Origin: Flavobacteriales bacterium
Lineage (GTDB): Bacteria > Bacteroidota > Bacteroidia > Flavobacteriales_D > JAHECK01
Direction: 5' to 3'
Assembly (NCBI GenBank): GCA_030591505.1
Contig: JAUVAY010000007.1
Coordinates: 1-38,394 of the forward strand
DNA length: 38,394 bases
Positions within the stretch are counted from its first letter, which is position 1. Each line of letters begins with the position of its first letter. The translations under genes and the position numbers were made by a program. Below are positions 19,857 to 38,394 of this stretch, one piece after another. The notes beneath the pieces were generated by a model, which had not been told where the DNA came from, searched no databases, and saw only the letters and a program-made list of their open reading frames with translations.

Positions 19857-21155
19857 GTGTTTACTTTCATCATTCGTAAATTACTCTATGGAATATTGGT
19901 ATTATGGGGCGTTGTTAGCTTTGTATTCCTGATCTTTAGTATAAAACCAGGTGATCCTGCACGAATGATGGGTGGACAGCATGCTACTGCAGAAGTAATA
20001 GCTGCTATAAATAAAGACTTGGGACTTGATCTCCCTTTATACAAACAGTATTTATTTTATATCAATGATCTTTTACCGATCTCCATTTTAGAAAAGAATA
20101 ACGAAGATTCTAGAATTTACGCTGATCCTGAAAAATATTCTGTTTCTTTTTCTATTCCGATAACGGAAAACCGAATGATTGTGCTTAAGAAACCCTACTT
20201 AAGAAGAAGTTATCAATCACGTAAAAAAGTTTCAGATATTATTTGGGAAGCGTTTCCTGGAACTTTTGTCTTGGCTATTGTAGCAATGACATTTGCCTTG
20301 ATCATTGGCTTGTTTGCCGGTGTGTTTTCAGCACTTTATAAGGGATCATTTTTTGATAATTCTACTTTGTTTCTTTCTGTATTGGGAATGTCAGGACCGT
20401 CTTTCTTTATGGCTATCTTGATTTCATGGTTAGGTGGATATGTTTGGTATGAACAAACTAATTTACCTATGCTTCCTTTTGTACTGTTTATCTTTGGGAT
20501 GATCGCTTATGCTTTTAGGAGGATTAAAGAAAAGAAGAAAGTATGGCCTTTAAGTATGGTATCCTTAGGGTTTAAGTACTTTTTTATAGGATTTCTTCTT
20601 TGGACTTTTATATCATTAATTCACTTCTTGTTTCCAGCTATTAATTTAAGTCTGTTTACTGGAACTTTTAGTTTACCAGGAACAGGGTTGGATATGACTG
20701 GATCTATGTATGAGTACGACGTGTATACCGGAAAATATCTAAGTCTGCAAAATCTACTACTCCCGGCGCTTACTTTAGGTATTAGACCCCTTGCTATTAT
20801 CGTTCAATTAACTAGAAGCTCTATGATCGAAGTGATGGATCAGGATTATATTAGAACAGCAAAAGCAAAGGGCTTATCCTCATGGGAAATAGTTTGGAAG
20901 CATGCGATCAAGAATACATTAAACCCTATAATTACTGCAGTGTCAGGTTGGTTTGCATCCATGTTAGCAGGTGCTGTATTTGTTGAATATGTTTTTGGAT
21001 GGAAAGGACTGGGACTTGAGTTATTTAATTCATTAATTAAAGATGATTTACCCGTTGTAATGGGTTCAGTTTTATTTATAGCAACTATTTTTGTTATCAT
21101 GAATATCTTGGTAGATATACTATATGGAATATTAGATCCAAGAGTAAGAATATAA
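19857..21155 (+). CDS. ABC transporter permease, DppB/OppB type
   Basis: VVSFVFLIFSIKPGDPARMMGG; RSSMIEVMDQDYIRTAKAKGLSSWEIVWKHAIKNTLNPIITAVSGWFASMLAGAVFVEYVFGWKGLGLELFNSL. GTG start abuts the upstream TAA. Confidence 0.93.
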   Translation: MFTFIIRKLLYGILVLWGVVSFVFLIFSIKPGDPARMMGGQHATAEVIAAINKDLGLDLPLYKQYLFYINDLLPISILEKNNEDSRIYADPEKYSVSFSIPITENRMIVLKKPYLRRSYQSRKKVSDIIWEAFPGTFVLAIVAMTFALIIGLFAGVFSALYKGSFFDNSTLFLSVLGMSGPSFFMAILISWLGGYVWYEQTNLPMLPFVLFIFGMIAYAFRRIKEKKKVWPLSMVSLGFKYFFIGFLLWTFISLIHFLFPAINLSLFTGTFSLPGTGLDMTGSMYEYDVYTGKYLSLQNLLLPALTLGIRPLAIIVQLTRSSMIEVMDQDYIRTAKAKGLSSWEIVWKHAIKNTLNPIITAVSGWFASMLAGAVFVEYVFGWKGLGLELFNSLIKDDLPVVMGSVLFIATIFVIMNILVDILYGILDPRVRI

Positions 21156-21159
21156 AATT

Positions 21160-21912
21160 ATGAGGAAGAGTATTGTAGCAGGAAATTGGAAAATGAATAT
21201 GAGTCATGTTGAAGCATTGAATTTGTATAAATCATTATCGGCACTGGAAGAATCATTTCCTTCTAATGTGGAGGTATTGGTTGCTCCACCATACGTTTAC
21301 TTAAATGAATTGAACAATATAGGAAAGGGTTCGAGAGTAAAAGTAATAGCTCAAAACTGTGCCAGTAATGAAAGTGGAGCGTATACAGGAGAAGTTTCAG
21401 CTTCAATGCTTCGTTCTATTGGTATTAACAGTGCGATCGTAGGGCATTCGGAACGGAGGCATGTTTTTGGAGAGAGCATTAGAGAGGTTACAGAGAAGGT
21501 TCTTATGCTTCTTAAACAAAATATGCAGGTTGTTTTTTGTGTAGGTGAACAATTGAGTGAACGAAAAGGAGGATCTCATTTTAATGTGATCAGTGATCAG
21601 TTACAATCTGTATTATCACTTGAACCTAGTTTATTTGAAAAAATTGTTGTGGCCTATGAACCCGTATGGGCTATAGGTACGGGAGAAACAGCTTCACCGG
21701 AACAAGCACAGGAAATGCATTCTTTTATTCGTTCAAAATTAAATGAAGTCTATGGTAAGCAATCCAATCAAACAAGGATTCTTTACGGTGGAAGTGTAAA
21801 ACCCAATAATGCCTCCGAAATATTTGGAAAACAAGATGTTGATGGTGGCCTTGTTGGAGGAGCATCTTTAGACGCTTCCGTATTTGCTGAGATTATTAAA
21901 GCAGCTGGGTAA
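21160..21912 (+). CDS. tpiA: Triose-phosphate isomerase
   Basis: RKSIVAGNWKMN, AIVGHSERR, VVAYEPVWAIGTG, ILYGGSVKPNNA, DGGLVGGASL. Confidence 0.98.
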   Translation: MRKSIVAGNWKMNMSHVEALNLYKSLSALEESFPSNVEVLVAPPYVYLNELNNIGKGSRVKVIAQNCASNESGAYTGEVSASMLRSIGINSAIVGHSERRHVFGESIREVTEKVLMLLKQNMQVVFCVGEQLSERKGGSHFNVISDQLQSVLSLEPSLFEKIVVAYEPVWAIGTGETASPEQAQEMHSFIRSKLNEVYGKQSNQTRILYGGSVKPNNASEIFGKQDVDGGLVGGASLDASVFAEIIKAAG

Positions 21913-21918
21913 TTTTTT

Positions 21919-21954
21919 GAATTACGCCCCGATAGCTATCGGGGACGAATTACG
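21919..21954. repeat. Short palindromic element flanked by 8-bp direct repeats
   Basis: GAATTACG - CCCCGATAGCTATCGGGG - AC - GAATTACG: 18-bp perfect palindrome (21927-21944), direct repeats at 21919-21926 and 21947-21954. Confidence 0.75.
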
Positions 21955-21963
21955 AATCAGGAT

Positions 21964-24282
21964 CTAGAAATAATAGTTGATTCCTAATGCTGGTAATATC
22001 GGCAATTGATTCACTACTTCTGCAGTAAACCTGTCTACATAAAACACGTTTGCCCTATCGTAAACGTTGGTTACACTCACATCGATCACTAATCTTGATT
22101 TTTTACTGAATTCAAATGTTTTCTTTACTCCTATATCTAAACGATGATAAGTAGGGAGTCGACCAGTATTCAGATCGCTTAATAAATATTGTAAAGCCTC
22201 ACTATTACTTGTGGTAATATTAGTATTGATTCCATCAGCTAACGTTTGTCCTTCATAAAACCCAGATGTTTGTGTGAACGGGAAACCTGATCCAAAATTC
22301 CAACGGGCATTTACTTCCCAGGTCTTATCTTTTCCAAATTTACGACTGGCAACAATATTTATGTTATGGCGACGGTCATATACGGGATTATAACTTTGTA
22401 AGCCATCCCATCTATCAGATTTTCCATAAGAATAAACTACCCAGATGAAATTTACACGATCCGTATATTTCATAATAAAATCAGCTCCAATAACAGTTCC
22501 TGTTTCAACAATATAGTCTGTTTTGAGGTAGTCAGGTACATCTGGTGTAGTTTCATTGAATACTTTAAATCTATTAGCATTTATTAACTGATCATAATAT
22601 TTATAATAGCCTTCAATATTGATATTTAAATGCTCATTTATATCGTATTCGAAACCAGCGATCAAGTGAGATGCTTGTTGAATAGATTTATCAATGGTCT
22701 TTATATCTCCGGATTCAGTCAGCATATCATCTGGAAGGCTCTCTGGCGAGGTGACATAACCATAAAAAAGATTTACTACATCACGATCAGAATTTGTTGC
22801 TACTAAATTTTGCGAGTAGAGTCCGGCAGAAGCTTTGATTCTGAAAAGAGGGGAGATGTTGTATTTTAAAGCTAAACGAGGTTCAGGTGAAAAATGATTA
22901 ATAGAAGAATAATAAATAAACCTAAACCCGGCATTTATAATAAGTTTTTCATTTGCCAATAAGAACTTATACAAAGCATACGCTGCAATGTCTGTTGTGT
23001 TACTGGTTTGACTTAGCTGTTGACCAAAAGAATTAAAAAATGAAAAATCAGTACCTAATCCACTAACATCAAATCCATATTTTAATTCATTCTTACCAAT
23101 GAAGTACTTCATATCTAGTCCAAGACTAAAGTTACTTATATCGCTTCTTCTAGGGTCATTGGATTCTTCTGTTAATTCAATTCCATAATTTGAAAAATTA
23201 AACCGTCCTTCAAGTAAAACTGCTGAAGTAGCAGGTACCAAAACGAAACTCATTCCAGCACCCCAATTATTCCAATTAAGTTCACTAAAATCGTTGAACT
23301 TGACCCTGTCATTAAAAGAGAATCCATTTAAATTCACTTTTGTACCATTACCTGAACCAAAGCTCACTTTACCAAAAAGGTCGTTGTATTCGAAGGGAAG
23401 TCCATCACCATCATTTATATAGGGATAAAAGATCGTTGAAGATTGATCTAAATAGGATGTTTTCGCAGAAAGTAAATAGGTTATTGCCCCATCGTCATTC
23501 GTTTTTTGTTTTTTTAACGGACCTTCTACCGATACTTTAGCGCCAAAAGTGCTTAAGCTAACAGAACCACTATGTTCTTTTTTATTTCCATCACGTGTAG
23601 TTATGTCCAGAACAGAAGAAATACGGCCTCCATATTGTGCTCCAAAACCACCCGTATATATATCGGCATTTTTCATTACATCTGTATCGAAAACAGAGAA
23701 TAAACCAATTGAGTGGAAGGGCTGCATAATGGTCATTCCATCAAGAGTTACACGATTCTGAACTGGTGAACCCCCACGAATAAATAACTGTCCACCTTGG
23801 TCTCCAGTAAATACAACACCTGGAATGACTTGCATATATTGAGCAATATCAGGTGTTCCACCAACCGAAGGTAATAATTGTATTTCCTTGCTTGAAACAC
23901 TGGTAACCGACATTTTAACTCTTGTTTGTCTTTCTTTTGTTTCTGCTGAGATCGTCACTTCGTCCATCTCAATGGCGCCCGATTTCAAGGTGATCTTAAT
24001 ATTAAGTATATCTCCACTTCTTAATACGATATCCTCTCTGTACTCCTCGTAACCGATTGAACTTACAATAAGCGTATAACTCCCGGTTTTAACTTTGGAG
24101 ATGGTATAATACCCATTTACATCCGTTGAAGAACCGTATGTTGTACCGTCAAGGTAAACATTAGTAAAAATAACTGGCTCACCTGATTCTTCATCGAAAA
24201 CAAAACCTCTTACCGTTCCGGTTTGAGCAATAGTAACGATGGAAACGAATAGAAATAATAGTGTGGCGTATAATTTATTCAT
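21964..24282 (-). CDS. TonB-dependent receptor with N-terminal carboxypeptidase-like domain
   Basis: Signal peptide, GTVRGFVFDEESGEPVIFTNVYLDGT, plug motif GQLFIRGGSPVQNRVTLDGM, C-terminal barrel ending in YF. Confidence 0.93.
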   Translation of the reverse strand: MNKLYATLLFLFVSIVTIAQTGTVRGFVFDEESGEPVIFTNVYLDGTTYGSSTDVNGYYTISKVKTGSYTLIVSSIGYEEYREDIVLRSGDILNIKITLKSGAIEMDEVTISAETKERQTRVKMSVTSVSSKEIQLLPSVGGTPDIAQYMQVIPGVVFTGDQGGQLFIRGGSPVQNRVTLDGMTIMQPFHSIGLFSVFDTDVMKNADIYTGGFGAQYGGRISSVLDITTRDGNKKEHSGSVSLSTFGAKVSVEGPLKKQKTNDDGAITYLLSAKTSYLDQSSTIFYPYINDGDGLPFEYNDLFGKVSFGSGNGTKVNLNGFSFNDRVKFNDFSELNWNNWGAGMSFVLVPATSAVLLEGRFNFSNYGIELTEESNDPRRSDISNFSLGLDMKYFIGKNELKYGFDVSGLGTDFSFFNSFGQQLSQTSNTTDIAAYALYKFLLANEKLIINAGFRFIYYSSINHFSPEPRLALKYNISPLFRIKASAGLYSQNLVATNSDRDVVNLFYGYVTSPESLPDDMLTESGDIKTIDKSIQQASHLIAGFEYDINEHLNINIEGYYKYYDQLINANRFKVFNETTPDVPDYLKTDYIVETGTVIGADFIMKYTDRVNFIWVVYSYGKSDRWDGLQSYNPVYDRRHNINIVASRKFGKDKTWEVNARWNFGSGFPFTQTSGFYEGQTLADGINTNITTSNSEALQYLLSDLNTGRLPTYHRLDIGVKKTFEFSKKSRLVIDVSVTNVYDRANVFYVDRFTAEVVNQLPILPALGINYYF

Positions 24283-24391
24283 GAAAAATTTTAATAGGGT
24301 AACAAAAATAACAATTTGTAGAGCTATTTGGAATGTGATTTACATACGGTAAAAAATAGCCCATTAAGTGTATGTAGACAATTATATATGG

Positions 24392-25393
24392 TTAATTCAT
24401 TATTTTATTTATTAATTCTTTCATCCATTCATTGTGGTCATTTGCCCCAACATTATATCCTTTCGATTTCATGTCGTATTCTCTAATCATATTGATGACA
24501 TTTACCACTTTCATCGCTGAATAATTCCTAGCAGCAACTTTATATTCCTTTACAAAAAATGGATTAACACCTAATACCCTTGCAAGATTAGCATCCGTTT
24601 TATCTTTCGTATAATAAAAAAGCATTAAGCGATTAAAATAATTGAAAAGATTAATGGATAGAAGGGGAAAAGGATGACTCTTTAAATTTTCACCGTAATA
24701 AAGTATTATCTGATTGGCTTTTTTAAAATTCTTTGTTCCAATTGCTTTTTGAAGTTCAAAAATGCTAAAATCCTTACTTATACCAATTTTACTCTCTATA
24801 TCAACGGCGCTTATAGTATCTCCTTTTTGCATACCAATAAAGAGTTTTCCTAGCTCATTAACCAGTTTCGAGATCTCATTCCCTAAATGGTCGGTCAGGA
24901 TTTGTGCACTTAACACATCTATTTTATAGCCCTGATGCTTACAATAATCAATGATCCATGGAGGAAGCTTATAGTCAGGAATTTTAACACTGTTAAAAAG
25001 AACAGCATTTGGATTTTTCTTAGGACTGTAAGCATTCTTTCTACCATCAAAGTTTTTGCCCTTCATAACAATAACAAAGGTGGTAGTGGCAACAGGGTTA
25101 ATTAAGTATGCTTCGTATTCTCCGAGGTTTTTAAGCTTTTGGGCTTCTTTGATGATGACGATCCTACGATCAGACATCATTGGATATTGTTTAGCTATTG
25201 AAAGAATGGATGCCGGATCACTTTCCATTCCATAAAAAATATCCATGTTAAAGGACCTTTCTCCTTCATTCAGGATGTCGTTTTCAATTGACTGAACAAT
25301 CTCGTCAATAAAAAACGACTCCATTCCCCCAATAAGATAGACTGGTGCAATTTCCCCTTTCTTAATTTCACTAATGATCTTTTTATGGGGCAT
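24392..25393 (-). CDS. holA: DNA polymerase III subunit delta
   Basis: 333 aa; PVYLIGGMESFFIDEIVQSIE, LSIAKQYPMMSDRRIVIIKEAQKL, LGNEISKLVNELGKL. Confidence 0.93.
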   Translation of the reverse strand: MPHKKIISEIKKGEIAPVYLIGGMESFFIDEIVQSIENDILNEGERSFNMDIFYGMESDPASILSIAKQYPMMSDRRIVIIKEAQKLKNLGEYEAYLINPVATTTFVIVMKGKNFDGRKNAYSPKKNPNAVLFNSVKIPDYKLPPWIIDYCKHQGYKIDVLSAQILTDHLGNEISKLVNELGKLFIGMQKGDTISAVDIESKIGISKDFSIFELQKAIGTKNFKKANQIILYYGENLKSHPFPLLSINLFNYFNRLMLFYYTKDKTDANLARVLGVNPFFVKEYKVAARNYSAMKVVNVINMIREYDMKSKGYNVGANDHNEWMKELINKIMN

Positions 25394-25395
25394 CT

Positions 25396-26169
25396 TTATT
25401 CAAATCTTAGGTGACGCACAGACTTTCCATCTTCCTTAATTTCTTTAAGTGCATCAATTCCAATTTTTATATGATCTTTCACGAAACTTTTCGTTACTAA
25501 ACTATCACTTTTAGTTGTTTTAACACCTGAAGGAATCATTGGTTGATCCGTGACCAGTAAAAGTGCTCCTACAGGTATTTGATTTGCAAAACCAACAGAA
25601 AAAAGCGTGGCTGTTTCCATATCAATAGCCATAGCTCTGATCTTTTTTAAGTACTTTTTGAATTTATCATCATGCTCCCAAACTCTTCGGTTTGTTGTGT
25701 AAACAGTTCCTGTCCAATAATCTTTTTGATGGTCTCGAATAGTTGAAGAGATCGCACGCTGTAGGTTAAATGCGGGCAATGCAGGGACTTCTTCAGGGAA
25801 ATAATCTTTACTAGTTCCTTCTCCTCTAATTCCGGCAATAGGTAGTATAAAGTCACCAATTTTATTCTTCTTTTTTAATCCCCCACACTTTCCAAGAAAT
25901 AAAACAGCTTTTGGGCGAATAGCACTTAAAAGATCCATGATGGTTGCTGCATTTGCACTTCCCATTCCGAAATTTATCATGCTTATACCATCCATAGTAG
26001 CACTGGGCATTGCTTTGTCAGAGCCAACAACTTTAACATTATGAAGTTCTGCAAAAGACTCAACATAATTATCAAAATTTGTCAAAAGAATATACTTTCC
26101 AAATTCTTCAAGCTCCACACCTGTATACCTAGGTAACCAATTTTCTACTATTTCCTTCTTTGTTTTCAT
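25396..26169 (-). CDS. amn: AMP nucleosidase
   Basis: INFGMGSANAATIMDLLSAIRPKAVLFLGKCGGLKKKNKIGDFILPIAGIRGEGTSKDYFP; AIDMETATLFSVGFANQIPVGALLLVTD. Confidence 0.92.
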   Translation of the reverse strand: MKTKKEIVENWLPRYTGVELEEFGKYILLTNFDNYVESFAELHNVKVVGSDKAMPSATMDGISMINFGMGSANAATIMDLLSAIRPKAVLFLGKCGGLKKKNKIGDFILPIAGIRGEGTSKDYFPEEVPALPAFNLQRAISSTIRDHQKDYWTGTVYTTNRRVWEHDDKFKKYLKKIRAMAIDMETATLFSVGFANQIPVGALLLVTDQPMIPSGVKTTKSDSLVTKSFVKDHIKIGIDALKEIKEDGKSVRHLRFE

Positions 26170-26212
26170 ACTTCACTTTTATAGACCTTAAAATTAATTT
26201 AAATTCGTTGAT

Positions 26213-26665
26213 GTGAGTTCGAACTTGATTAAATTAAATTTACCTGAATTACCTGTACGTGTTAAGGTTGAAGATGATGTTGAAAAAATATTTGACCCAA
26301 TACGTAAAAAGTGGCTGCTCTTAAGTCCGGAAGAATGGGTGCGACAGTATTTTCTTCTCTTTATGCATCATGTTTATAAGTATCCATTAAGCTTAGCAGA
26401 AACGGAAAAGAAATTTGATCTTTTTAATACGATCAAACGTGCTGATATTGTTTTTTATAATCGAGAACTAAATCCACAAGTAATTGTTGAATGCAAGGCA
26501 CCATCAGTAAAATTAAATAAAGAGGTCTTTGATCAGCTTATTAATTATCATATGGCATTGAAAGCTGAATATTTGATCATCACAAATGGTATGGAGCATT
26601 ATATATTCCAATTTATTAAAGGAAAAGTGAAGTTTCTTAAGGAGATACCTAGCTATTTAGGTTAA
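26213..26665 (+). CDS. Stand-alone type I restriction HsdR N-terminal (HSDR_N-like) domain protein
   Basis: 150 aa, GTG start; EEWVRQYFLLFMHHVYKYPLSL...KRADIVFYNRELNPQVIVECKAPSVKLNKEVFDQLINYHMALKAEYLIITNG: PD-(D/E)xK-like D...ExK. Confidence 0.85.
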   Translation: MSSNLIKLNLPELPVRVKVEDDVEKIFDPIRKKWLLLSPEEWVRQYFLLFMHHVYKYPLSLAETEKKFDLFNTIKRADIVFYNRELNPQVIVECKAPSVKLNKEVFDQLINYHMALKAEYLIITNGMEHYIFQFIKGKVKFLKEIPSYLG

Positions 26666-26684
26666 ATAAATAACAACTTAAATG

Positions 26685-26710
26685 CATAATACTCTCGTTA
26701 GAGTATTATG
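26685..26710. terminator. Perfect 11-bp hairpin CATAATACTCT-CGTT-AGAGTATTATG; no T-tract
   Basis: Arms 26685-26695 and 26700-26710, 20 bp after the HSDR_N stop. Confidence 0.5.
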
Positions 26711-26742
26711 TTAAAGTCTGGTGTTTGTTAGACGAATATTTT

Positions 26743-26750
26743 TAATTTTG
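26743..26750 (+). promoter_or_regulatory. Candidate -7 element TAATTTTG upstream of DUF5606
   Basis: Matches TAnnTTTG; TTTG at 26724-26727 could be a -33 box, though the 15-nt spacing is short. Confidence 0.4.
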
Positions 26751-26767
26751 CCTGCAAATTTAGATCT

Positions 26768-27238
26768 ATGAATTTAGAAGGAATCATTTCAATCTCTGGT
26801 AAACCTGGCCTTTATAAGGTCGTATCAAAAAGAAAAAATGGATTGATAGTTGAGTCTATCCCTGAACAAAAAAAACTTAATGTTTTTGCGTTGGATAAGG
26901 TAAGCGCGTTGGATGATATTAGTATTTATACTTATGAAGAGGATATTCCACTTAAAGAAGTTTATTCAAAGTTGTTTGAATTAGAGGAAGGAAAGAAAAG
27001 TATAGATCATAAAGAAAGCGGTGACAATTTGCGCAAAAAAATGATACAGATCTTACCGGATTTTGATCAAGACAGAGTTTATTCATCAGATCTAAAGAAA
27101 TTATTCCAATGGTATAATCTGCTTATTTCAGCTAATTTATTAGTGGCTGATGTGGAGGAAGAGAAGGAAGTGGAGGAAGTGAAAGAAGTGAAGGAAGTGA
27201 AAGAAGTGAAAGAAGTGAAGGGAGTGAAGAAAAAATAG
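26768..27238 (+). CDS. DUF5606 domain-containing protein
   Basis: MNLEGIISISGKPGLYKVVSKRKNGLIVESIPEQKKLNVFALDKVSALDDISIYTYEEDIPLKEV; low-complexity tail. Confidence 0.9.
   Translation: MNLEGIISISGKPGLYKVVSKRKNGLIVESIPEQKKLNVFALDKVSALDDISIYTYEEDIPLKEVYSKLFELEEGKKSIDHKESGDNLRKKMIQILPDFDQDRVYSSDLKKLFQWYNLLISANLLVADVEEEKEVEEVKEVKEVKEVKEVKGVKKK
27164..27226 (+). repeat. In-frame 9-bp tandem repeat (7 units, [K/E]-[E/G]-V)
   Basis: aaggaagtg gaggaagtg aaagaagtg aaggaagtg aaagaagtg aaagaagtg aagggagtg. Confidence 0.9.
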
Positions 27239-27273
27239 AATTAAATATAAAAGAAAGAACCAATATATATATC

Positions 27274-27663
27274 ATGAAAAAAACAGTCATATTCCTATTG
27301 CTTACCGTTTTATCGTTTAGTGCGTATTCGCAGACTAAGAATAAATCAGTTGCTTATCCACCCAATACTTCAAAAAACATTAAAGGCTCCTCTTTATTTA
27401 TTCAAATTATAGGACTTGAACAGATAGATGGGAATAGTATAAAATTCATTGTTAAAATTGGAGATGAAAATAAGTTCTATATTCAGAACGATCGTGAATT
27501 CGAGGTATTTGATCAAATTCAATCAGAAGTATCTTCATATCAAACACTTCCAGATGTACTTAATTATTTAAAAAGTAAAGGTTTTGAACTTGAGTATTAT
27601 ACGAGTATTGCACTTGATGGTATGTTACGTCATGATATGATCTTTTCATTTGCGACCAATTGA
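27274..27663 (+). CDS. Hypothetical secreted protein (129 aa)
   Basis: Signal peptide MKKTVIFLLLTVLSFSAYSQT; no family recognised. Confidence 0.7.
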   Translation: MKKTVIFLLLTVLSFSAYSQTKNKSVAYPPNTSKNIKGSSLFIQIIGLEQIDGNSIKFIVKIGDENKFYIQNDREFEVFDQIQSEVSSYQTLPDVLNYLKSKGFELEYYTSIALDGMLRHDMIFSFATN

Positions 27664-27692
27664 TAAAAAGAGAAAAGTATTTAAATCGAGAG

Positions 27693-27718
27693 AACCCGTT
27701 TGAAACGGGTTTTTTTTA
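27693..27718 (+). terminator. Rho-independent terminator
   Basis: AACCCGTT-TGA-AACGGGTT followed by a T-run, 30 bp after the stop codon at 27663. Confidence 0.9.
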
Positions 27719-27724
27719 TGTGTT

Positions 27725-28111
27725 TTAGTTTAGCTTTTGCAGACTAATCATTAGAAATTCAGGAATATATACTTTAAATGTATAACCATTCTCAAGGTTC
27801 TTAAATAAATAATAGCCTTTCATCTTGCCTACATGAGTAGTGAAATCACAGGCTGATTCGTACTTAAAATGCTGGTAGCTTTTTATAAGAGGTTGTTTGC
27901 CTATCACACCTTCCCCATCAACCTGTCTTACATTTCCCAATCCATCTGTAATATGCCAATGTCGATTTAGCAAACGCACAGGAAATTCGTTGGTGTTAGT
28001 AATCTCTACAGAATAGGAAAAGAGGAATTCTCCGTTGTTCTCATTTGAGAAAACGGGTTCGTATCGAGATGATACCTTTATCTCTATTCCACTTGTTACA
28101 GCACTCTTCAT
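27725..28111 (-). CDS. apaG: Co2+/Mg2+ efflux protein ApaG family
   Basis: GIEIKVSSRYEPVFSNENNGEFLFSYSVEITNTNEFPVRLLNRHWHITDGLGNVRQVDGEGVIGKQPLI. Confidence 0.95.
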   Translation of the reverse strand: MKSAVTSGIEIKVSSRYEPVFSNENNGEFLFSYSVEITNTNEFPVRLLNRHWHITDGLGNVRQVDGEGVIGKQPLIKSYQHFKYESACDFTTHVGKMKGYYLFKNLENGYTFKVYIPEFLMISLQKLN

Positions 28112-28201
28112 TACTAATTATTAAGATAAAAGTAAAAAAATATCTCAAACAAACATTTTATATAATGAATGCAGACATAATATTTTAGATCTGTTATTTA
28201 T

Positions 28202-29470
28202 TTAAAGATGTGAAACAGCAAATTGTAGACCTACTATTCTGTCGTACATTTTATCAGGATCTTTATAATAAACAATAACAGTATAGTCATTATTCGTTTG
28301 AAAATGGGTACCCTCGATGAATGCCATTTGGCCAGAAGCCTCATCATCAGGCAAAAAGAAATAAGCGTAGTTATAGTACCCCTGCTTTATGAAAATGCGT
28401 TTTTTGTAAGCATTTCGTTCGAAATCATATTCAAGTTCATACTTATTGCTGTATTCATAATTGCTAAATTGCCCACCTATGTATAAGCCTGCATTGTGTA
28501 CGGGAAAATCGAAAGGAAGAGTAAAATAGACCCATACATAATCTGCCTCGGTATCAAAATTTAATGCATAATCGATTTTGATTAAATAATTACCATTAAG
28601 GTCTTCCCAAGTAGAGTAGCGCTTAAATGTTTTTTTTTCGTCAGGGTGAAGAAATACCCTCACCCTTGATGAATCTTCATTGATGATTGCGATTCTCTCA
28701 GATTGGTAGCGAAGGTCCTTAATATCAAAATTTCGGTATTCATTTCCACCGTCAAAACTCGACTTCTCTTCAAAGTCGTAGATTAACTCACTTCCCTTTA
28801 TAAACTTTGGTTGTAAACCAGTAATAGCATTGTCCCAGCGATTATTCTGCATTACTACTACCTTAATTTCATCATAGGGATTGAAAATTTGTAACCGACC
28901 AACATTAACATTAAAGTCAACTTCTTGTCGGTAATCTCTGTCAGCAACAACACTCGATGATTTAACTTTTATTTTAACACTTGCTTCATTTTCATAAACC
29001 ATAAAACGCTGTGTTATAATAAGTTTGTCGTGATCCATTCCTTCGAAAACTTTAAGGATGTAATTTCCTGATGTTAGTAGTTCTACATCTCTATTTGGTA
29101 ATTCAAGCGAATAATGCGTGTAATCTTGAAGCGTATTAACAGAATATAAATAGTCGTACAACTCATTTTCATTAAAACCATTCATATAATCATTTAAGCG
29201 CAGATCGGAAACCTCCCAATTAGCATTGCAATGGATAATGCTATAATAATAGATCGACTGTTCATCGTTGAGATCATCAAATGCAAAATGTACTTTGTCT
29301 GAAGAGTTTAATTGAATAATTGCAGGATTCAATGGAAACCCGACTTTATAACACTGTACCGTCTCGATGCCTTTTTTGAAAACTTTATTCTCTAATTGTG
29401 AATAGGATGTAATAGAAATTGAGGAAGAAAATAAAAAGAGTAATAAGAACTTGAAGTAGTAATGTTTCAT
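28202..29470 (-). CDS. Type IX secretion system plug protein (DUF5103)
   Basis: Signal peptide after the likely start at 29470 (MKHYYFKFLLLFLFSSSISITSYSQ); IIHCNANWEVSDLRLNDYMNGFNENELYDYLYSVNTLQDYTHYSLELPN typical of DUF5103. The ORF track extends to 29539. Confidence 0.88.
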   Translation of the reverse strand: MKHYYFKFLLLFLFSSSISITSYSQLENKVFKKGIETVQCYKVGFPLNPAIIQLNSSDKVHFAFDDLNDEQSIYYYSIIHCNANWEVSDLRLNDYMNGFNENELYDYLYSVNTLQDYTHYSLELPNRDVELLTSGNYILKVFEGMDHDKLIITQRFMVYENEASVKIKVKSSSVVADRDYRQEVDFNVNVGRLQIFNPYDEIKVVVMQNNRWDNAITGLQPKFIKGSELIYDFEEKSSFDGGNEYRNFDIKDLRYQSERIAIINEDSSRVRVFLHPDEKKTFKRYSTWEDLNGNYLIKIDYALNFDTEADYVWVYFTLPFDFPVHNAGLYIGGQFSNYEYSNKYELEYDFERNAYKKRIFIKQGYYNYAYFFLPDDEASGQMAFIEGTHFQTNNDYTVIVYYKDPDKMYDRIVGLQFAVSHL

Positions 29471-29583
29471 AATTTGTTTAATAGCACAAAATAAGTCGAA
29501 ATTTATGCAACATTTATACCTAAATTTATTTTTGGTCATTTAATGTTTGTCTTTGTAATATTATACATCCAAAATACCCAATT

Positions 29584-30495
29584 TTGACAAAACGATTCAC
29601 GCTACTTTTATTTCTATTTTTCATTTTGATTCCGGGTAAAGAAGCGGCTTGTCAAAAAGATAGCACTAAAGTAATTAAGCAAAGTAGCAAAAGAGTAATT
29701 GTTTTTTCTAGTCAAGGTCTCTTGGCTATTGGTTCACTCGCTTATCTACAAAACACCTGGTATTCCAATTTTAATACGGGGAAATTTCGCACTATTGATG
29801 ATAGTGGCCAGTGGTTGCAAATGGATAAAATAGGGCATATGGCAACGGTGAATATGGTGAGTAATGTTAATTATCATGCCTATAGCTGGGCAGGATACTC
29901 AAATAAACAAGCGACGTGGATGGGCTTTGGTCTAACGTGGAGTTACCTAACAGCCATAGAAATAATGGATGGCTACTCTGAAGGATGGGGTTTTTCCTGG
30001 AGTGATATAGCTGCAAATACCATTGGCGGAGCATTGTTTGTAGCACAACAGTTAACATGGGAAGAACAAAGAATTCTAATGAAATTCTCTTATCACGCTA
30101 CAGAATATGCCGCCATGCGACCGGAGGTTCTTGGTTCAACTTCTGCTCAACGGATTCTAAAAGATTATAATGGACAAACCTATTGGCTTTCTGTCAACCC
30201 GCAATCATTTTTCAAAGAGAGAAAAGTATTTCCAAAATGGCTAAACTTAGCCTTGGGTTACTCTGCTGATGGGTTATTGGGAGGGAAATCGAATGTTGGT
30301 GATGACTATGATTTCAGTGATATTCCACGAATTCGACAATTTTATTTTTCTCCCGATATCGATTTTTCTAGGATAACAACTAAAAGTAAATTCCTCAAAG
30401 GACTATTTGTTGTTCTAAATATGATAAAAGTTCCGGCACCAACACTTGAAGTTGATCAAAATGGAGATGTGAAATTTTACTTTTTTTACTTTTGA
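29584..30495 (+). CDS. DUF2279 domain-containing protein
   Basis: TTG start, signal peptide; WLQMDKIGHMATVNMVSNVNYHAYSWAGYSNKQATWMGFGLTWSYLTAIEIMDGYSEGWGFSWSDIAANTIGGALFV. Confidence 0.85.
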   Translation: MTKRFTLLLFLFFILIPGKEAACQKDSTKVIKQSSKRVIVFSSQGLLAIGSLAYLQNTWYSNFNTGKFRTIDDSGQWLQMDKIGHMATVNMVSNVNYHAYSWAGYSNKQATWMGFGLTWSYLTAIEIMDGYSEGWGFSWSDIAANTIGGALFVAQQLTWEEQRILMKFSYHATEYAAMRPEVLGSTSAQRILKDYNGQTYWLSVNPQSFFKERKVFPKWLNLALGYSADGLLGGKSNVGDDYDFSDIPRIRQFYFSPDIDFSRITTKSKFLKGLFVVLNMIKVPAPTLEVDQNGDVKFYFFYF

Positions 30496-30499
30496 AGAA

Positions 30500-31426
30500 A
30501 TGAATACTCCCAAGATATTTATCCTACTGTTAGTTGTCTTTTGTTTCGATATATCGCTTCAAGCTCAGGACGTAGTAAAAGTTGTAACTCTTGAAGGGGT
30601 TGATATTTCCGCTGTTGCTGATGATTTTGACACGAAGGCTTTTATCGAAAAAGTAAAGAATGATAACACCTTTTACCTCGCTTTCAAGGCACTAAATTAT
30701 TATCCAGCGCGATACAATGCATGGTTAAAGGTTTTTAAAAGGGGAGAAAAAGAAAAAGGACATGTTAATAGAAGTGCAGAACGCTTCAAGTCAGAAGACC
30801 TCATGTGGGTAGTTATTACGGAAGAAGAAATTAAAGGAAAGGTCAAGAAGAAAAATGGTAAATATAAGTACCTGACAGCCGAAGTATGGGATGAAGTTTT
30901 TTTTCCGGTAGAGAAGAAGAAGGTAAATATGAAACCTACCCGGGAATTTGAAAAGAACAAAGACTTAAGCAGTTCAGAGAAACACCGAATGGAGGTAAAG
31001 CAAATGATGTTTAACCCCGGTTTAGAAGTTGATGGGATTCCATTTATTGGGAAAAAGATGGGCATTTTCGAAGAGCTTATGCATGAATACTATGAATATA
31101 GCGTGTATCAAACAAATTATAAAGATTCGATCGAATGTTTAGTATTTGAAGCGGAGATAATGGAAGGTTTTAGAGAAGGGAAAACAGTTATTAAATCCTT
31201 GTTAACCTATTTCGATAAAGAGACTTATGAGGTTCTTAAACGAGACATCCACCTAAAGTACTTCAGTCTGCCTATTGATTTTGATATCTATATAAATGTT
31301 GAAAATCAACGGGTGAATGGGGTTTTATTACCTGAAAAGATCTATTACAAGGGTTTTTTTGACCTTCCTTTTATGAAAAAGGAAGAAATTGAGTTTATGC
31401 TCTATGATTTTGACTACTTGTTTTGA
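30500..31426 (+). CDS. Hypothetical secreted protein (308 aa), possibly LolA/lipoprotein-sorting-like
   Basis: Signal peptide ILLLVVFCFDISLQAQD; 4 bp after DUF2279; beta-rich C-terminus. Confidence 0.6.
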   Translation: MNTPKIFILLLVVFCFDISLQAQDVVKVVTLEGVDISAVADDFDTKAFIEKVKNDNTFYLAFKALNYYPARYNAWLKVFKRGEKEKGHVNRSAERFKSEDLMWVVITEEEIKGKVKKKNGKYKYLTAEVWDEVFFPVEKKKVNMKPTREFEKNKDLSSSEKHRMEVKQMMFNPGLEVDGIPFIGKKMGIFEELMHEYYEYSVYQTNYKDSIECLVFEAEIMEGFREGKTVIKSLLTYFDKETYEVLKRDIHLKYFSLPIDFDIYINVENQRVNGVLLPEKIYYKGFFDLPFMKKEEIEFMLYDFDYLF

Positions 31427-31522
31427 TTGTTAAAAAATCGTAGTAATTAGCGCGTAAATAAAGTGAGTTAAAGTCACGAATATTTACCTTTACAATTAGT
31501 CAAAAACCGACTACAAACGACT

Positions 31523-34500
31523 ATGTTTCTTATTTTTGATACCGAAACTACGGGGCTTCCCCGTTCTTATACTGCACCAGTAAGCGATCTTGAGAATTGG
31601 CCCAGAGCTGTTCAGATAGCATGGCAATTACATGATAGCCTTGGGCAACTTATCGAAGTTAAGAACTATATCATTAAACCCGAAGGTTTTACCATCCCTT
31701 TTAATTCTGAAAAAATTCATGGGATCAGTACAGATCGAGCGCTTAAACAAGGAGTTGATCTAAAATGGGTTTTAGAGGAATTTGCTAAAGTATTAAAGCA
31801 AACTTCATTCAATGTAGGGCATAATGTTGAATTCGATATCAACATTATGGGTGCCGAATTTCTTCGTAATGGGATGGAAAACCCCTTACCGGAAATGTTG
31901 GAGATCGACACGATGAAAAACTCAGTTAATTTCTGTGCTATTCCCGGAGGTAGAGGTGGAAAGTTCAAGTACCCAAACTTGGGTGAACTACATCAAAAGC
32001 TTTTTGATGAAGGATTTGGAGAAGCACATAATGCTTCTGCTGATGTTGAAGCGACGACTCGGGTGTTTTTTGAATTAGCCAGACTGGGAGTTATTCCTCC
32101 TTCAATGCTGAATTTTAATTCAGAACAGTTTAAAGAATTTAAAGAGGCGAATCCTAAGCAAATAAAGGCAATAGGACTAAATATCGAACCCTATGCGCCG
32201 GAAGAACTTGAAGAAATTATACCTGATGAGCAGCGAGTTGAAGATGTAGATAAAATATCAATTGAAGAAGGCTTGGAGCGACTCAAAGATGTTCCATTCT
32301 CTCATTTACATAATCATTCTCAATTCTCCGTACTTCAGGCTACATCAAAACTTGATGCCTTAATAGATCAGGCCGTTAAATATAAAATGCCAGGCTTAGC
32401 AGTTTCTGACCTTGGAAACATGTTCGCTGCCTTTAAATTTGTAAGTAAAGTACTGGCTCATAATAAGCATGTTGAAGGAGTAAATAAAGAGTTAGAGGCG
32501 GAAGGAAAAGAGCCGACAGGTCATACGATTAAGCCTATAGTTGGGTGTGAATTCTATCTGTGTCAAGATCTTAATGATAAGACGAAGAAAGATAATGGAT
32601 TTCAGATCGTTGCATTAGCAAAGACGAAAAAAGGATATAAAAACTTGGCTAAATTGTCATCTATGGCCTTCCTTAATGGCTTTTATTATGTTCCAAGGAT
32701 CGATAGAAAATTGCTTCTGGAATATAAGGAGGATATCATTATTACGAGTGGGGGAATCAGTGGCGAAGTCGCTGATCTACTATTGAATGTTGGTGATAAG
32801 CAAGCCCTGGAGGCGATGCTGTGGTGGAAGGAACATTTTGGGGAAGACTTCTACCTTGAACTACTCCGACATAATTTAGATGAGGAGAATAGGGTGAATG
32901 AAGTGCTTGTTGAATGGGGAAAGAAGCACGACATAAAGTATTTTGCATCGAATAATACCTTTTATATTGATAAAGAGGATTCAAAAGCACACGATATACT
33001 GCTTTGTGTTAAAGAAGGGGAAAAGGTGGAGACACCTATAGGTAGAGGAAGAGGATTTCGCTATGGTTTTCCTAATGATGAATTCTACTTCAAGAGCAGC
33101 GATGATATGAAAAAGCTTTTCGGAGATCTTCCGGAAGCTATTGAATGTACGAATGAGATCGTAGATAAAATCGAGATCTATGACTTAGCAAGTGATGTTT
33201 TGTTACCGAAATTTGATATTCCTGATGAATTTAAGGATGATAAGGATGATGAAGATGGAGGGAAAAGAGGGGAGAATGCCTATTTGCGTCACCTAACTTA
33301 CGAAGGGGCTAAAAAGCGATACAAAACTATTTCTGAAGAACTTCGTGAGCGCTTGGATTTTGAATTAGCTACTATTGAAAAGACGGGCTATCCAGGGTAT
33401 TTTCTGATCGTCCAGGATTTTACAAGTCAGGCTAGAAAAATGGGTGTTTCTGTTGGTCCTGGAAGAGGGTCAGCTGCAGGTTCTGCGGTCGCTTATTGTA
33501 CAGAGATCACCAATATTGACCCCATTAAATATGACCTTCTATTTGAGCGGTTTCTGAATCCTGACCGTGTGTCAATGCCCGATATTGATATTGATTTTGA
33601 TGATGAAGGTAGAGGGAAGATCATCGATTGGGTAGTAAATAAATATGGTTCAAGTCAAGTTGCACAGATCATTACTTACGGCTCGATGGCAGCTAAATCC
33701 TCCATTCGAGATACAGGAAGAGTGCTTGGATTACCACTTAATGAGACAGATCAGTTAGCAAAATTAATTCCGGATAATATCTCCTTATCCAAACTCTTTA
33801 CCCTTGATGATAAAGCCTTAAAATCGAAGGTTAGTTCAGAGCAGATGCCTAATGCTATTGCGATGAAGGGTAGAGCGGAAGATGGTGATCTTGCTGCACA
33901 AACGATAAATCAAGCCCGTAAAATAGAAGGTTCGGTAAGAAATACTGGAACACATGCTTGTGGAGTGATCATTGCACCAGATGATCTTACCAACCACCTT
34001 CCGGTTTCTATGGCGAAGGATTCGGATCTTTTGGTTACTCAGTTTGATAACTCGGTAGTAGAGGCGGCTGGACTCCTAAAAATGGATTTCCTGGGTTTAA
34101 AAACACTGTCCGTAATAAAAGATGCTATTACCTTGGTTAAGGAAGGCCATGGAGTTGTAATAGATCCTGATGAGATACCTCTAGATGATAAGAAAACTTA
34201 CGAATTGTATCAGAAAGGGTGGACCAATGGGACATTCCAGTTTGAATCTGTAGGGATGCAGAAACATCTGCGTAACCTGAAACCTGACAAATTTTTGGAT
34301 CTTATTGCGATGAATGCCTTGTATCGTCCGGGACCTATTGAGTACATTCCAAACTTTATTGCCAGAAAAAATGGGAGGGAAGAGATCGTTTACGATGTAC
34401 CCCAAATGGAGGAGTATTTGGCCGAGACCTATGGTATTACGGTGTATCAGGAGCAGGTAATGCTACTCTCACAAAAACTTGCTGGATTTACTAAAGGTGA

Positions 34501-35887
34501 AGCTGATGTTTTACGAAAGGCGATGGGGAAGAAGAACCCTGTTCTTTTGGGTAAACTAAAACCTAAGTTTATTGAAGGCTGCGATAAAAATAAAATTGAT
34601 GCTGAGAAAGCGGAGAAAATTTGGGTCGATTGGGAGAAATTTGCTGCTTATGCTTTCAATAAATCACATTCAACTTGTTACTCGGTTGTAGCTTTTCAAA
34701 CGGCCTATTTAAAAGCGCATTACCCTGCAGAATATATGGCTTCGGTGCTTACGCACAACATGAATGATATAAAGAAGGTGACTTTCTTTATGGAAGAGTG
34801 TAGGAGAATGGGATTGGCTGTATTAGGGCCTTCTGTTAACGAATCAGGACTAAAGTTTAGGGTTAATGAGAAAGGAGAAATTCGCTTTGGATTAGGAGGA
34901 ATAAAAGGGGTAGGTGAAAATGCTGTACAGAGTATAATTGCCGAAAGAGTAGAGAATGGTTCTTTTATTTCTTTACCGGACCTTACAAAAAGAGTGGAGT
35001 CTAATCAGGTGAATAAAAGGGTATTGGAAAATCTTGGCTTGGCTGGAGCTATCGATACTTTCGGATTGAACCGTTCCCAACTTTTTAAAGCGGATGAAAA
35101 GACGGGCAGGTCTTATATTGAGACCGCTTTACGCTTTGGATCAAAATATAAAGAATCACAAAATAGTAGTCAGGTCTCTATGTTCGAACAGAGCGATCAG
35201 TTCGACATGCCAGAGCCGATGGCGCCCATAGAACCTGAGTGGGGTACGCTGGAGAAGTTAAAGAAAGAGAGAGAGGTAGTCGGTATTTTTATTACCGGTC
35301 ACCCTTTGGATGATCATTCATTTGTAATTAAGAATTTTTGTCGAAATCAATTAAGTGATCTTGAGGACCTGGATAAATTGAAAGAGAGATCTCGGAATAT
35401 TAGTGTAGCAGGAATGATCACCAATGTTGATCATCGTATTTCTCAAAAAGGAAACCCCTGGGGACGTTTTACATTGGAAGATTATAATGGAAGTTACCAA
35501 TTCTCACTGTTTAGTAAGGATTATTTACGTTTAAGGAATTTTATTAATACCGATTGGTTTGTTTTTATTGAAGCGACCGTATCTTATAATGATTATAGGA
35601 ATAGTACGGAATTGAAGATCAAAAACATCATCATGCTTGCTGAATTAATGGATATTAAAGCGAAAGCATTACAAATTGACATTGACTTAGAAACGATGGA
35701 TGCAACATTGGTTGAAGACCTTGTTAATATCTTAGATCAGCCTCAAGGAAAGTTGGGTGTTAAAATACGTTTCTTTGATAATGGTAACATGATTCAATTG
35801 AAGTCGAGGAAGAAGGGGATTAAACTGAATAAAGAAACTACAGACCATCTGGCGATGATGGATAATGTGAAAGTTAGATTGATTTAA
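31523..35887 (+). CDS. dnaE: DNA polymerase III subunit alpha with fused N-terminal DEDDh 3'-5' exonuclease
   Basis: Exonuclease motifs FDTETTG, NVGHNVEFDINIMG, HNASADVEATTRVF; PHP region from about 32295; polymerase motifs VGPGRGSAAGSAVAYC, PDIDIDFDDEGR, YRPGPIEYIPNFI, YQEQVM, FNKSHSTCYS. Confidence 0.96.
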   Translation: MFLIFDTETTGLPRSYTAPVSDLENWPRAVQIAWQLHDSLGQLIEVKNYIIKPEGFTIPFNSEKIHGISTDRALKQGVDLKWVLEEFAKVLKQTSFNVGHNVEFDINIMGAEFLRNGMENPLPEMLEIDTMKNSVNFCAIPGGRGGKFKYPNLGELHQKLFDEGFGEAHNASADVEATTRVFFELARLGVIPPSMLNFNSEQFKEFKEANPKQIKAIGLNIEPYAPEELEEIIPDEQRVEDVDKISIEEGLERLKDVPFSHLHNHSQFSVLQATSKLDALIDQAVKYKMPGLAVSDLGNMFAAFKFVSKVLAHNKHVEGVNKELEAEGKEPTGHTIKPIVGCEFYLCQDLNDKTKKDNGFQIVALAKTKKGYKNLAKLSSMAFLNGFYYVPRIDRKLLLEYKEDIIITSGGISGEVADLLLNVGDKQALEAMLWWKEHFGEDFYLELLRHNLDEENRVNEVLVEWGKKHDIKYFASNNTFYIDKEDSKAHDILLCVKEGEKVETPIGRGRGFRYGFPNDEFYFKSSDDMKKLFGDLPEAIECTNEIVDKIEIYDLASDVLLPKFDIPDEFKDDKDDEDGGKRGENAYLRHLTYEGAKKRYKTISEELRERLDFELATIEKTGYPGYFLIVQDFTSQARKMGVSVGPGRGSAAGSAVAYCTEITNIDPIKYDLLFERFLNPDRVSMPDIDIDFDDEGRGKIIDWVVNKYGSSQVAQIITYGSMAAKSSIRDTGRVLGLPLNETDQLAKLIPDNISLSKLFTLDDKALKSKVSSEQMPNAIAMKGRAEDGDLAAQTINQARKIEGSVRNTGTHACGVIIAPDDLTNHLPVSMAKDSDLLVTQFDNSVVEAAGLLKMDFLGLKTLSVIKDAITLVKEGHGVVIDPDEIPLDDKKTYELYQKGWTNGTFQFESVGMQKHLRNLKPDKFLDLIAMNALYRPGPIEYIPNFIARKNGREEIVYDVPQMEEYLAETYGITVYQEQVMLLSQKLAGFTKGEADVLRKAMGKKNPVLLGKLKPKFIEGCDKNKIDAEKAEKIWVDWEKFAAYAFNKSHSTCYSVVAFQTAYLKAHYPAEYMASVLTHNMNDIKKVTFFMEECRRMGLAVLGPSVNESGLKFRVNEKGEIRFGLGGIKGVGENAVQSIIAERVENGSFISLPDLTKRVESNQVNKRVLENLGLAGAIDTFGLNRSQLFKADEKTGRSYIETALRFGSKYKESQNSSQVSMFEQSDQFDMPEPMAPIEPEWGTLEKLKKEREVVGIFITGHPLDDHSFVIKNFCRNQLSDLEDLDKLKERSRNISVAGMITNVDHRISQKGNPWGRFTLEDYNGSYQFSLFSKDYLRLRNFINTDWFVFIEATVSYNDYRNSTELKIKNIIMLAELMDIKAKALQIDIDLETMDATLVEDLVNILDQPQGKLGVKIRFFDNGNMIQLKSRKKGIKLNKETTDHLAMMDNVKVRLI

Positions 35888-35927
35888 AAAATGCAGTTAG
35901 GCAGACATTTAAGAAAAATAAATAACG

Positions 35928-35935
35928 TAATTTTG
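35928..35935 (+). promoter_or_regulatory. Candidate -7 element TAATTTTG upstream of trxA
   Basis: Exact TAnnTTTG match 56 bp upstream of the ATG at 35991. Confidence 0.4.
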
Positions 35936-35990
35936 CCTTCTGTTTTAAGAATATAATAACGGGTCGTTTTGACCACAAAAGAAAATAATA

Positions 35991-36311
35991 ATGGAAGTAA
36001 TTTTTGACAATGCAAATTTTGAAGAAAAGGCAATAAAGTCTGATAAAGTAGTAATGATCGATTTCTGGGCGGAATGGTGTGGACCATGTAGAATGGTTAG
36101 TCCTATTGTTGAAGAAATTGCAAATGAATATGGAGCTGATCAAGCAGTGATCGGTAAAGTAAATGTTGATGAAAACCCTGAGATCTCAATGCGTTTTGGA
36201 ATTCGTAACATTCCAACGATTCTTTTTCTAAAAAATGGTGAAGTTGTTGATAAACAAGTAGGTGCAGTTCCAAAACACGTACTTGAAGAAAAGCTTAAAA
36301 GCCACATGTAA
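35991..36311 (+). CDS. trxA: Thioredoxin
   Basis: MIDFWAEWCGPCRMVSPIVEEIA...VDENPEISMRFGIRNIPTILFLKNGEVV. Confidence 0.97.
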   Translation: MEVIFDNANFEEKAIKSDKVVMIDFWAEWCGPCRMVSPIVEEIANEYGADQAVIGKVNVDENPEISMRFGIRNIPTILFLKNGEVVDKQVGAVPKHVLEEKLKSHM

Positions 36312-36326
36312 GATATATTTAATACT

Positions 36327-36378
36327 AAAAAAGGCCATCCATAATCCCAATAGCTATCGGGACGGGATGGCCTTTTTT
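36327..36378. terminator. Bidirectional terminator whose loop carries a copy of the palindromic element
   Basis: AAAAAAGGCCATCC (36327-36340) pairs with GGATGGCCTTTTTT (36365-36378); loop contains CCCAATAGCTATCGGGAC. Lies between convergent trxA and the PPIase. Confidence 0.9.
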
Positions 36379-36415
36379 ATTTTATTATCATAGCTTAAAA
36401 CCCATGGTAATAAAA

Positions 36416-36850
36416 TTAATCTTCAACCTCAACCTTTTGAATTACATCTCCTTCTAGAATATCATCGATCACATCCAAACCATCAACAACTTTTCCAAAA
36501 CAAGTATGCACACCATCAAGGTGGGAAGTATTGTTACGGCTGTGGCATACAAAAAATTGTGAACCACCTGTGTTTTTCCCTGCATGGGCCATAGAAAGTA
36601 CTCCTCTGTCGTGGTATTGATTTTCTCCGCTTGTTTCACAGTCGATCGAATAACCGGGACCACCCGCTCCAGTACCATTTGGGCACCCACCCTGAATTAC
36701 AAAGTCAGTTAGAACACGGTGAAACGTAAGTCCATCATAATATCCATCTTTTGCTAGTTTTACGAAGTTAGCAACCGTAGCCGGTGCATCATTGTCGTAA
36801 AATTCGATACTCATCGTACCTTTATCGGTGATCATTTTTGCTTTTGTCAT
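36416..36850 (-). CDS. Cyclophilin-type peptidyl-prolyl cis-trans isomerase
   Basis: [42 protein letters not shown]. Likely start MTKAKM at 36850; the ORF track extends to 36874. Confidence 0.95.
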
Positions 36851-37067
36851 AGTATGTTTTTTTAAAGAGTGCAAAGATATGATTTGTGTCTTAATATGTT
36901 AAGATATCTGCTTCTGATTAATTACCTTTATTGTAAACTCCGAAGGAATGTAATTATTATTGCCGTAGATGAAACCTACGGGTAGAGATGTAGAAATACG
37001 GGTTGTTATTTGGCGGAGTTTTTGCGGATTGCAAAAATCTGTGACAAATAAAGAGTCAAAATAGATA

Positions 37068-37928
37068 TTGATTTTGATGATGGTTAAAAAAAGAAAAATT
37101 GCTTTAGTATTAAGTGGAGGAGGAGCAAGAGGAATCGCTCATGTTGGACTATTAAAGGCATTGAATGATAATGGGATTTACCCTAAGGAAATATCAGGAA
37201 CCTCCATGGGAGCGATCATCGGTTTATTATATGCAGCAGGATTAAGTCCAATTGAAATTATAAACAAGATAGAAGAGCTTAAGTTCTATGATCTGATATC
37301 TTCTTTTGGGAAAATTAGAAAGCGATCCTTAGACATTCTTTACCCAATTATTAAAAAAGCGATTGGTGTTACTCGATTCGATCAATTAGAGATCCCATTA
37401 CATATCGCAGTGAGCAATGTTAATTATGGTCGGGCTGAAATGATAAGTAAAGGGGATTGCATCCATGCAGCCCTCGCTTCAGCAAGTATCCCATTTGTAT
37501 TTAGGGCCTATTCTAATGGATCAATGGATTTTGTAGATGGCGGATTATTAAATAATTTCCCTATAGATCCCTTTCTTGGAAGTGATTATTCAATTATTGG
37601 CTGTGATGTAAACTATTTAGGATTTGTAAAAGATACAAATAGGATGCTGCCTTATATAGAAAGGACAATTCGAATGGCATTGTTTCAAAATGTAAGAATT
37701 CGAGAAAGGCTATGTGATTTTCTTTTAGAACCTAAGGATATTGGAGAATACACTTCATTTGATTTCAAAAGTGCGAGAAAACTATTTGAAATTGGTGAAA
37801 AGGATGCGCTGAATAATATGGATCAGCTCAAAGCGGCCATTGATAAAGAGAACAATAAAAAAGATCAGCAACACTGTTTAAAAGAGCTTCTTAAAGCTGA
37901 CCAGATCGTGGAAGAAAGGGAGTTTTAG
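37068..37928 (+). CDS. Patatin-like phospholipase family protein
   Basis: LVLSGGGARGIAHVGLL, GTSMGAIIGLLYA, DGGLLNNFPI. Confidence 0.93.
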   Translation: MILMMVKKRKIALVLSGGGARGIAHVGLLKALNDNGIYPKEISGTSMGAIIGLLYAAGLSPIEIINKIEELKFYDLISSFGKIRKRSLDILYPIIKKAIGVTRFDQLEIPLHIAVSNVNYGRAEMISKGDCIHAALASASIPFVFRAYSNGSMDFVDGGLLNNFPIDPFLGSDYSIIGCDVNYLGFVKDTNRMLPYIERTIRMALFQNVRIRERLCDFLLEPKDIGEYTSFDFKSARKLFEIGEKDALNNMDQLKAAIDKENNKKDQQHCLKELLKADQIVEEREF

Positions 37929-37975
37929 CATTGTAATTCTGTTTGCAAATTGTACCTCGAAATGTTTCACTCAAC

Positions 37976-38287
37976 GCTTACGCTAAAGCTTCAGCGACAG
38001 CGTAAAGCACTGAAAGAAAAGGCCTTGTTATTTAATAAGATGGCTTTGCGTTCTTAGCTTCTCAATATTTATTGAGCCTTTACAAATCTTTGCGAGAAAT
38101 AATTCTAATGCTAGCCTGAAACAAATTCCGAAAGCGAGGAACAAACACTAATAATTAATAAGAAAACTCTTTTTTAAAGTAATCACTATTTTAAAGCACT
38201 GATCTACCTTGAGATAGTAAACTTTACTCTGTGCAACTCCTTTTTCCTTAGTGAATCTTTGCTCCTTCGCTAAAGTGCTTGTTGCAC
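37976..38287. repeat. Degenerate intergenic repeat-like tract
   Basis: GCTTACGCT (37976-37984) and AGCGTAAAGC (37999-38008) nearly inverted; GCTTTGCGTTCTTAGCTTC, AATCTTTGCGAG, CTCTGTGCAACTCC, TTAGTGAATCTTTG words; GTGCAAC (38231) / GTTGCAC (38281). Confidence 0.4.
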
Positions 38288-38394
38288 AACATCGCTGAAC
38301 AGAGATTTTGACATCAAGAGACGTGTTCTAACGTCATTTGTTTTCGTGGCCTTACCACTAGATAATACCGAGTAGATACTTGTTGTTTGGTCGG

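Follow-up and report, generated by a model that had tools for sequence, protein, structure and literature searches.

The window, by which we mean the whole stretch of 38,394 nucleotides analysed, carries an 18-bp palindrome between the genes for triosephosphate isomerase and a TonB-dependent receptor. We think it fairly probable that this palindrome is a fixed-sequence micro-insertion, TCCCGATAGCTATCGGGA along with its symmetric variants, that has spread among members of the phylum Bacteroidota, with approximately 3 bp replaced at each insertion. Judging from empty orthologous and paralogous sites, the palindrome behaves as an insertion, in agreement with the first-pass annotation of this DNA, which had favored mobility over a plain terminator. 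The replacement of about 3 bp by the 18-mer is well supported, and the phylum bias toward Bacteroidota is strong.

The query site and the copies in the host genome

The perfect 18-bp palindrome, CCCCGATAGCTATCGGGG (positions 21927-21944, no strand assigned), is followed by AC and is framed by the octamer GAATTACG on both sides (21919-21926 and 21947-21954), letter for letter as originally described. Its placement between two convergent genes has also been confirmed, these being tpiA, encoding triosephosphate isomerase (21160-21912, plus strand; PF00121, E 3e-90), and a gene for a TonB-dependent receptor with carboxypeptidase-regulatory and plug (PF07715) domains (21964-24282, minus strand). 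The left octamer, starting 6 bp past the last base of tpiA, represents a unit of a heptamer array (21919-21926, plus strand) that is present elsewhere in the genome, with the same flank found at other copies of the palindrome, and the right side holds the array units GAATTAC GAATCAG (21947-21960, plus strand), with one other locus (L010) carrying GAATTACGAATTACGAATTAT at the equivalent place.

The unit in question, TCCCGATAGCTATCGGGA, of which the query is the C..G outer-pair variant, has been recognized at 225 distinct sites, mostly in other genomes. As these loci were retrieved by palindrome search, the sample consists by design of exact or near-exact copies, and several loci that share a genus are only partly independent of one another. 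The unit has sharp edges, the outer pair being T..A at 203 of the 225 sites and C..G at 14, and past this pair the information in the flanks is low, A being rare at the next position. Among near-copies, double changes keep the pairing in 13 cases and break it in one. Half-sites mainly belong to decayed palindromes, and a larger element bounded by half-sites was rejected.

When the host assembly (2.93 Mb, 213 contigs) was searched with the 16-bp core of the query, CCCGATAGCTATCGGG, allowing up to one mismatch, 16 places were found (the reversed control producing none), which settles a point raised at first pass, of whether the palindrome occurs only once or twice in the genome. These copies occupy two main contexts. 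One is the AATTACG/CGTAATT heptamer sequence, as seen at the query and at five other loci (L005, L007, L009, L010, L022), and the other is the loop of a terminator-like stem, typical of most of the other host-genome copies (L002, L004, L006, L008, L011-L015, L065). The window itself contains two matches at up to three mismatches, 0.01 being expected from dinucleotide shuffles. The second of these (36345-36362, no strand assigned), with three mismatches at that search and one mismatch to TCCCGATAGCTATCGGGA, lies inside the loop of a terminator. This is a bidirectional intrinsic terminator in the thioredoxin/cyclophilin intergenic space (36330-36377, no strand assigned), recognized from RNA fold and gene calls, with a hairpin and a T-run and with folds of -28 and -33 kcal/mol (z -5.9 and -7.7). 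The query hairpin also folds stably (z -3.0 for the plus strand RNA), but no T-run or U-tract follows it on either strand, and thus the query palindrome is not a canonical terminator. Any influence that it might have on the transcripts converging from tpiA and the TonB-receptor gene would be hypothetical. No known Rfam RNA family was matched in positions 20000-38394.

The stable fold, the frequent terminator position in the host genome and the perfect dyad of fixed sequence would all suit a functional site maintained by selection, which could serve to terminate transcription or act as the operator for a dimeric DNA-binding protein present throughout the phylum. However, besides the missing U-tract, the palindrome also interrupts tRNA fragments and occurs within some coding frames, and most genomes of the order do not possess any exact copy, and we consider such a site unlikely. 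Overall, the palindrome is mostly intergenic: 30 of 180 copies fall in long open frames, compared with 455 of 540 positions chosen at random. At two loci (L112:4183 and L177:3930) it lies within long frames that it leaves open, contributing residues that are PIAIG-like or PDSYRD-like, and at L112 it stands just ahead of the DFVLTDIQMP motif of a response regulator; a few still-open reading frames thereby acquire in-frame residues.

Empty sites and the bases replaced

GAATTAC arrays without the palindrome also occur in the host genome, and the AATTACG-type flank recurs at five other copies; because of this, the octamer repeat is two units of a (GAATTAC)n-type array and not the target-site duplication that it had been taken for at first pass. 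One of the palindrome-free arrays (L025, G000:C165:26157-26234) consists of approximately 11 tandem GAATTAC heptamers. The minus-strand sequence of the query is CGTAATTCGT-palindrome-CGTAATTC, and an unbroken array would show AATT at the palindrome position, so that the query palindrome apparently replaced 4 bp (AATT) of the heptamer array.

Comparison with the congener, one other genome of the host genus, supports insertion at several places. In this genome, orthologous terminators lack the palindrome at five loci (L002, L004, L006, L011, L015; the alignments are approximate in less conserved spacers), and so does the equivalent of the terminator copy at 36345-36362. At the tpiA-TonB junction, the congener is missing both the array and the palindrome, and no GAATTACG is left. 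Thus the junction without the palindrome, which the first-pass annotation had proposed to look for, does exist, but the single octamer expected there does not, and, as the array and the palindrome are missing together, the query has no informative orthologous empty site in which the array is still in place.

The clearest orthologous pair comes from the genus of G123, in which the filled site reads AATTCGGC-TCCCGATAGCTATCGGGA-CGTAATTC, with CGTAATT-C as the right flank, and the empty ortholog in G105 (L382) reads AATTCGGC-ATT-CGTAATTC. At another G123 site, the relatives are missing the array plus the palindrome entirely. These comparisons, made at the level of species, show the palindrome present in one species of a genus and absent from the orthologous site in another. 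The search of the G123 genus also returned other short dispersed repeats, located at positions 484-527 and 1261-1352 of the sequence used for that search, that are present in many copies in this genus and are apparently unrelated to the palindrome.

Paralogous sites present a similar picture. Of 220 sites, 41 have a palindrome-free local copy of their flanks, compared with 13 of the 600 intergenic controls, and thus the rule rests on a minority, approximately 80% of the sites having no local empty copy. The gap is 3 bp in 16 of these 41 and 4-6 bp in another 17. Tandem arrays around the palindrome are mostly of period 7, and exactly 3 bp are missing at the palindrome in 9 of 12 arrays of this period and in 2 of 4 arrays of period 8. 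Period 7 is also the commonest among short arrays in the intergenic controls, and so these arrays are a background feature of the genomes studied. The rule was first spotted by eye in some of the loci later counted, the counting having taken all sites along with controls.

These data bear directly on the proposal of a transposon scar with an 8-bp target-site duplication. Flanking direct repeats of at least 7 bp are indeed enriched, being present at 19.6% of the sites versus 2.5% of partner-shuffled controls. However, these repeats are accounted for by the tandem arrays, in which period 7 predominates and 3 bp are absent at the palindrome; the congener's empty site does not contain GAATTACG; and a duplication is contradicted by the 3-bp replacement at the orthologous site and in tRNA fragments. 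Likewise, in terms of DNA transposons or MITEs, filled copies are missing about 3 bp that are present in the empty ones, and the half-site search detected neither lone half-sites of a larger element nor larger relatives with the same inverted ends. We thus consider a duplication scar highly improbable.

tRNA-gene fragments and candidate enzymes

In tRNA-gene fragments, the palindrome recurs at the same loop positions. Nineteen of 221 sites are located within 150 bp of tRNA genes, 4.3 being expected from the same loci, and near these genes the palindrome sits within partial copies of the tRNA. In the D-loop, the replaced bases are nt 14-16 (starting at nt 14 or 15), and in the T-loop they are nt 58-60 (starting at the nt-58 equivalent), in both cases the loop bases that adjoin the stem and come first on either one strand or the other. 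Two T-loop fragments carry symmetric variants, TCCCGAAAGCTTTCGGGA in place of AAT at L080 and TTCCGATAGCTATCGGAA at L190, and one locus (L214) has an insertion in the variable loop. This locus has one intact tRNA-Asn, and upstream of it stand, in tandem, three tRNA-Asn-like copies whose variable loop carries the palindrome (L214:1600-2170); two of the three are still called tRNA genes by ARAGORN. Insertion alone does not account for the tie to duplicated tRNA pieces; perhaps an insertion survives only where it strikes a spare tRNA copy.

One candidate cause is a GIY-YIG endonuclease cassette entering tRNA genes, with the palindrome as the mark left behind. At eight loci (L073, L081, L092, L115, L142, L178, L190, L214), small GIY-YIG frames are no more than approximately 210 bp away from the palindrome, a clear excess over the GIY-YIG density in the loci, and in L214 and L092 the gene adjoins palindrome-bearing tRNA-gene fragments. 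However, palindrome-rich and palindrome-free genomes are not distinguished by their GIY-YIG gene counts, the palindrome is present at only 2 of 30 GIY-YIG loci, and the one small GIY-YIG gene of the host genome has no palindrome nearby. We rejected GIY-YIG as the sole cause on the grounds of the gene counts, and view the cassette as an unlikely source of the palindrome. At three loci (L214:1600-2600, L092:1500-1950, L178:5740-6120) GIY-YIG genes are found beside or between palindrome-bearing partial and intact tRNA genes, an arrangement that looks like a cassette duplicating tRNA ends; a search for a viral relative of one GIY-YIG protein found none.

Another candidate is a RAYT (Y1, TnpA-REP) transposase moving a REP/REPIN-like element. 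The palindrome is, like such elements, multi-copy, intergenic and palindromic, the host genome has Y1_Tnp matches at four places, and Y1 matches are somewhat more numerous in the palindrome-rich than in the palindrome-free genomes chosen. On the other hand, while the transposase that the first-pass annotation had proposed to look for does have matches, the palindrome is found at none of 30 Y1 loci, and the host genome's own Y1 genes have no palindrome nearby. Y1_Tnp was also undetected in six palindrome-rich genomes (G109, G264, G249, G360, G218, G378), some of which are incomplete drafts. No 5' tetranucleotide tag is conserved over the 225 sites, and a GTAG foot is not found. IS200/IS605-type insertion, moreover, is not known to remove target bases, unlike the loss of approximately 3 bp observed here. 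A RAYT-driven element appears quite improbable, and we see no explanation for the distribution of the palindrome in either RAYT (Y1) transposases or GIY-YIG nucleases.

Distribution, related elements and possible origin

The recurrence of the palindrome among Bacteroidota, suggested at first pass, now has numbers attached to it. Of 399 genomes from the order, 70 contain the exact 16-mer core, with up to 33 copies per genome, and the reversed 16-mer is found in none of the 399. A scan of GTDB representatives with the 18-mer detected at least 118 stretches, and among the 80 titles listed, 79 name Bacteroidota, with several orders represented, while the remaining title carries no information on the phylum. 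The 16-mer is also found in 42 viral contigs, versus one for a permuted palindrome of equal composition. In six of the viral contigs (L222, L231, L232, L245, L248, L258) the palindrome interrupts repeated sequence of the CCTCACCCC..CTCTCCAAAGGAGAGG type, with 5-6 bp replaced.

Among known elements, Rickettsia palindromic elements (RPE) are also palindromic insertions, intergenic and occasionally within genes, but they are much longer and are known only from Rickettsia, and we know of no 3-bp replacement rule for them. REP/REPIN elements mobilized by RAYT are likewise short, palindromic, intergenic, multi-copy and capable of forming hairpins, but the palindrome described here has neither the GTAG tag nor a linked Y1 transposase, replaces approximately 3 bp, and maintains one sequence phylum-wide. 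REPs with a CGTC tag have been reported from Bacteroidetes, among others (Di Nocera, 2013; PMC3733652), and, like the palindrome, they are short and have no dedicated transposase; the query even has CGTC beside the palindrome on the minus strand. We rejected membership in this group, as the 225 sites have no conserved tag and the CGTC of the query stems from the abutting CGTAATT array. Mitochondrial GC clusters, or hairpin elements, are short GC-rich repeated hairpins inserted intergenically, with the stem under structural constraint (PMC4478555, PMC2800124); these differ in being organellar, in sequence, in length (42 nt for GC42) and in having AG target nucleotides. No prior description of the palindrome was found in open-access text, in which sequence strings are seldom printed, so that an earlier account is possible.

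As to the origin of the micro-insertion, each event would exchange about 3 bp of target sequence, in most cases purine-N-pyrimidine and often ANT, for the 18-mer, a net addition of 15 bp. The insert is probably joined to broken DNA, either as a hairpin or as a symmetric tag on the ends. The break itself would arise where a stem meets its loop, or else at a dyad site of weak specificity, and repair may then proceed in one of two ways, through addition of a self-complementary hairpin at the break or through addition of the same 9-nt tag to both ends. In the latter version a palindrome is the automatic outcome, since the same nine bases tag both ends. The preference for the loop base next to the stem resembles hairpin-nuclease cutting as known from SbcCD. 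Survivors would be found where the insert is tolerated, such as terminator loops, intergenic seven-base arrays and partial tRNA-gene duplicates. More tentatively, a phylum-wide activity, conserved among the orders of Bacteroidota, may cut loop-stem junctions or weak dyads, remove 3 bp and add the 9-nt TCCCGATAG to both ends prior to ligation, leaving one and the same palindrome at each break that it mends; such an activity, if true, would represent either end-tagging repair of a sequence-specific kind or a minimal hairpin that is mobile although it has no gene of its own.

In conclusion, the fixed 18-bp word common to a whole phylum, the loss of about 3 bp and the constant positions in tRNA loops imply a conserved enzyme or a nucleic-acid donor. 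If real, the micro-insertion would present a minimal mobile or repair-signature element and a genome-wide marker of DNA break sites in Bacteroidota, and the spread of non-coding palindromes without a linked transposase would become directly testable.
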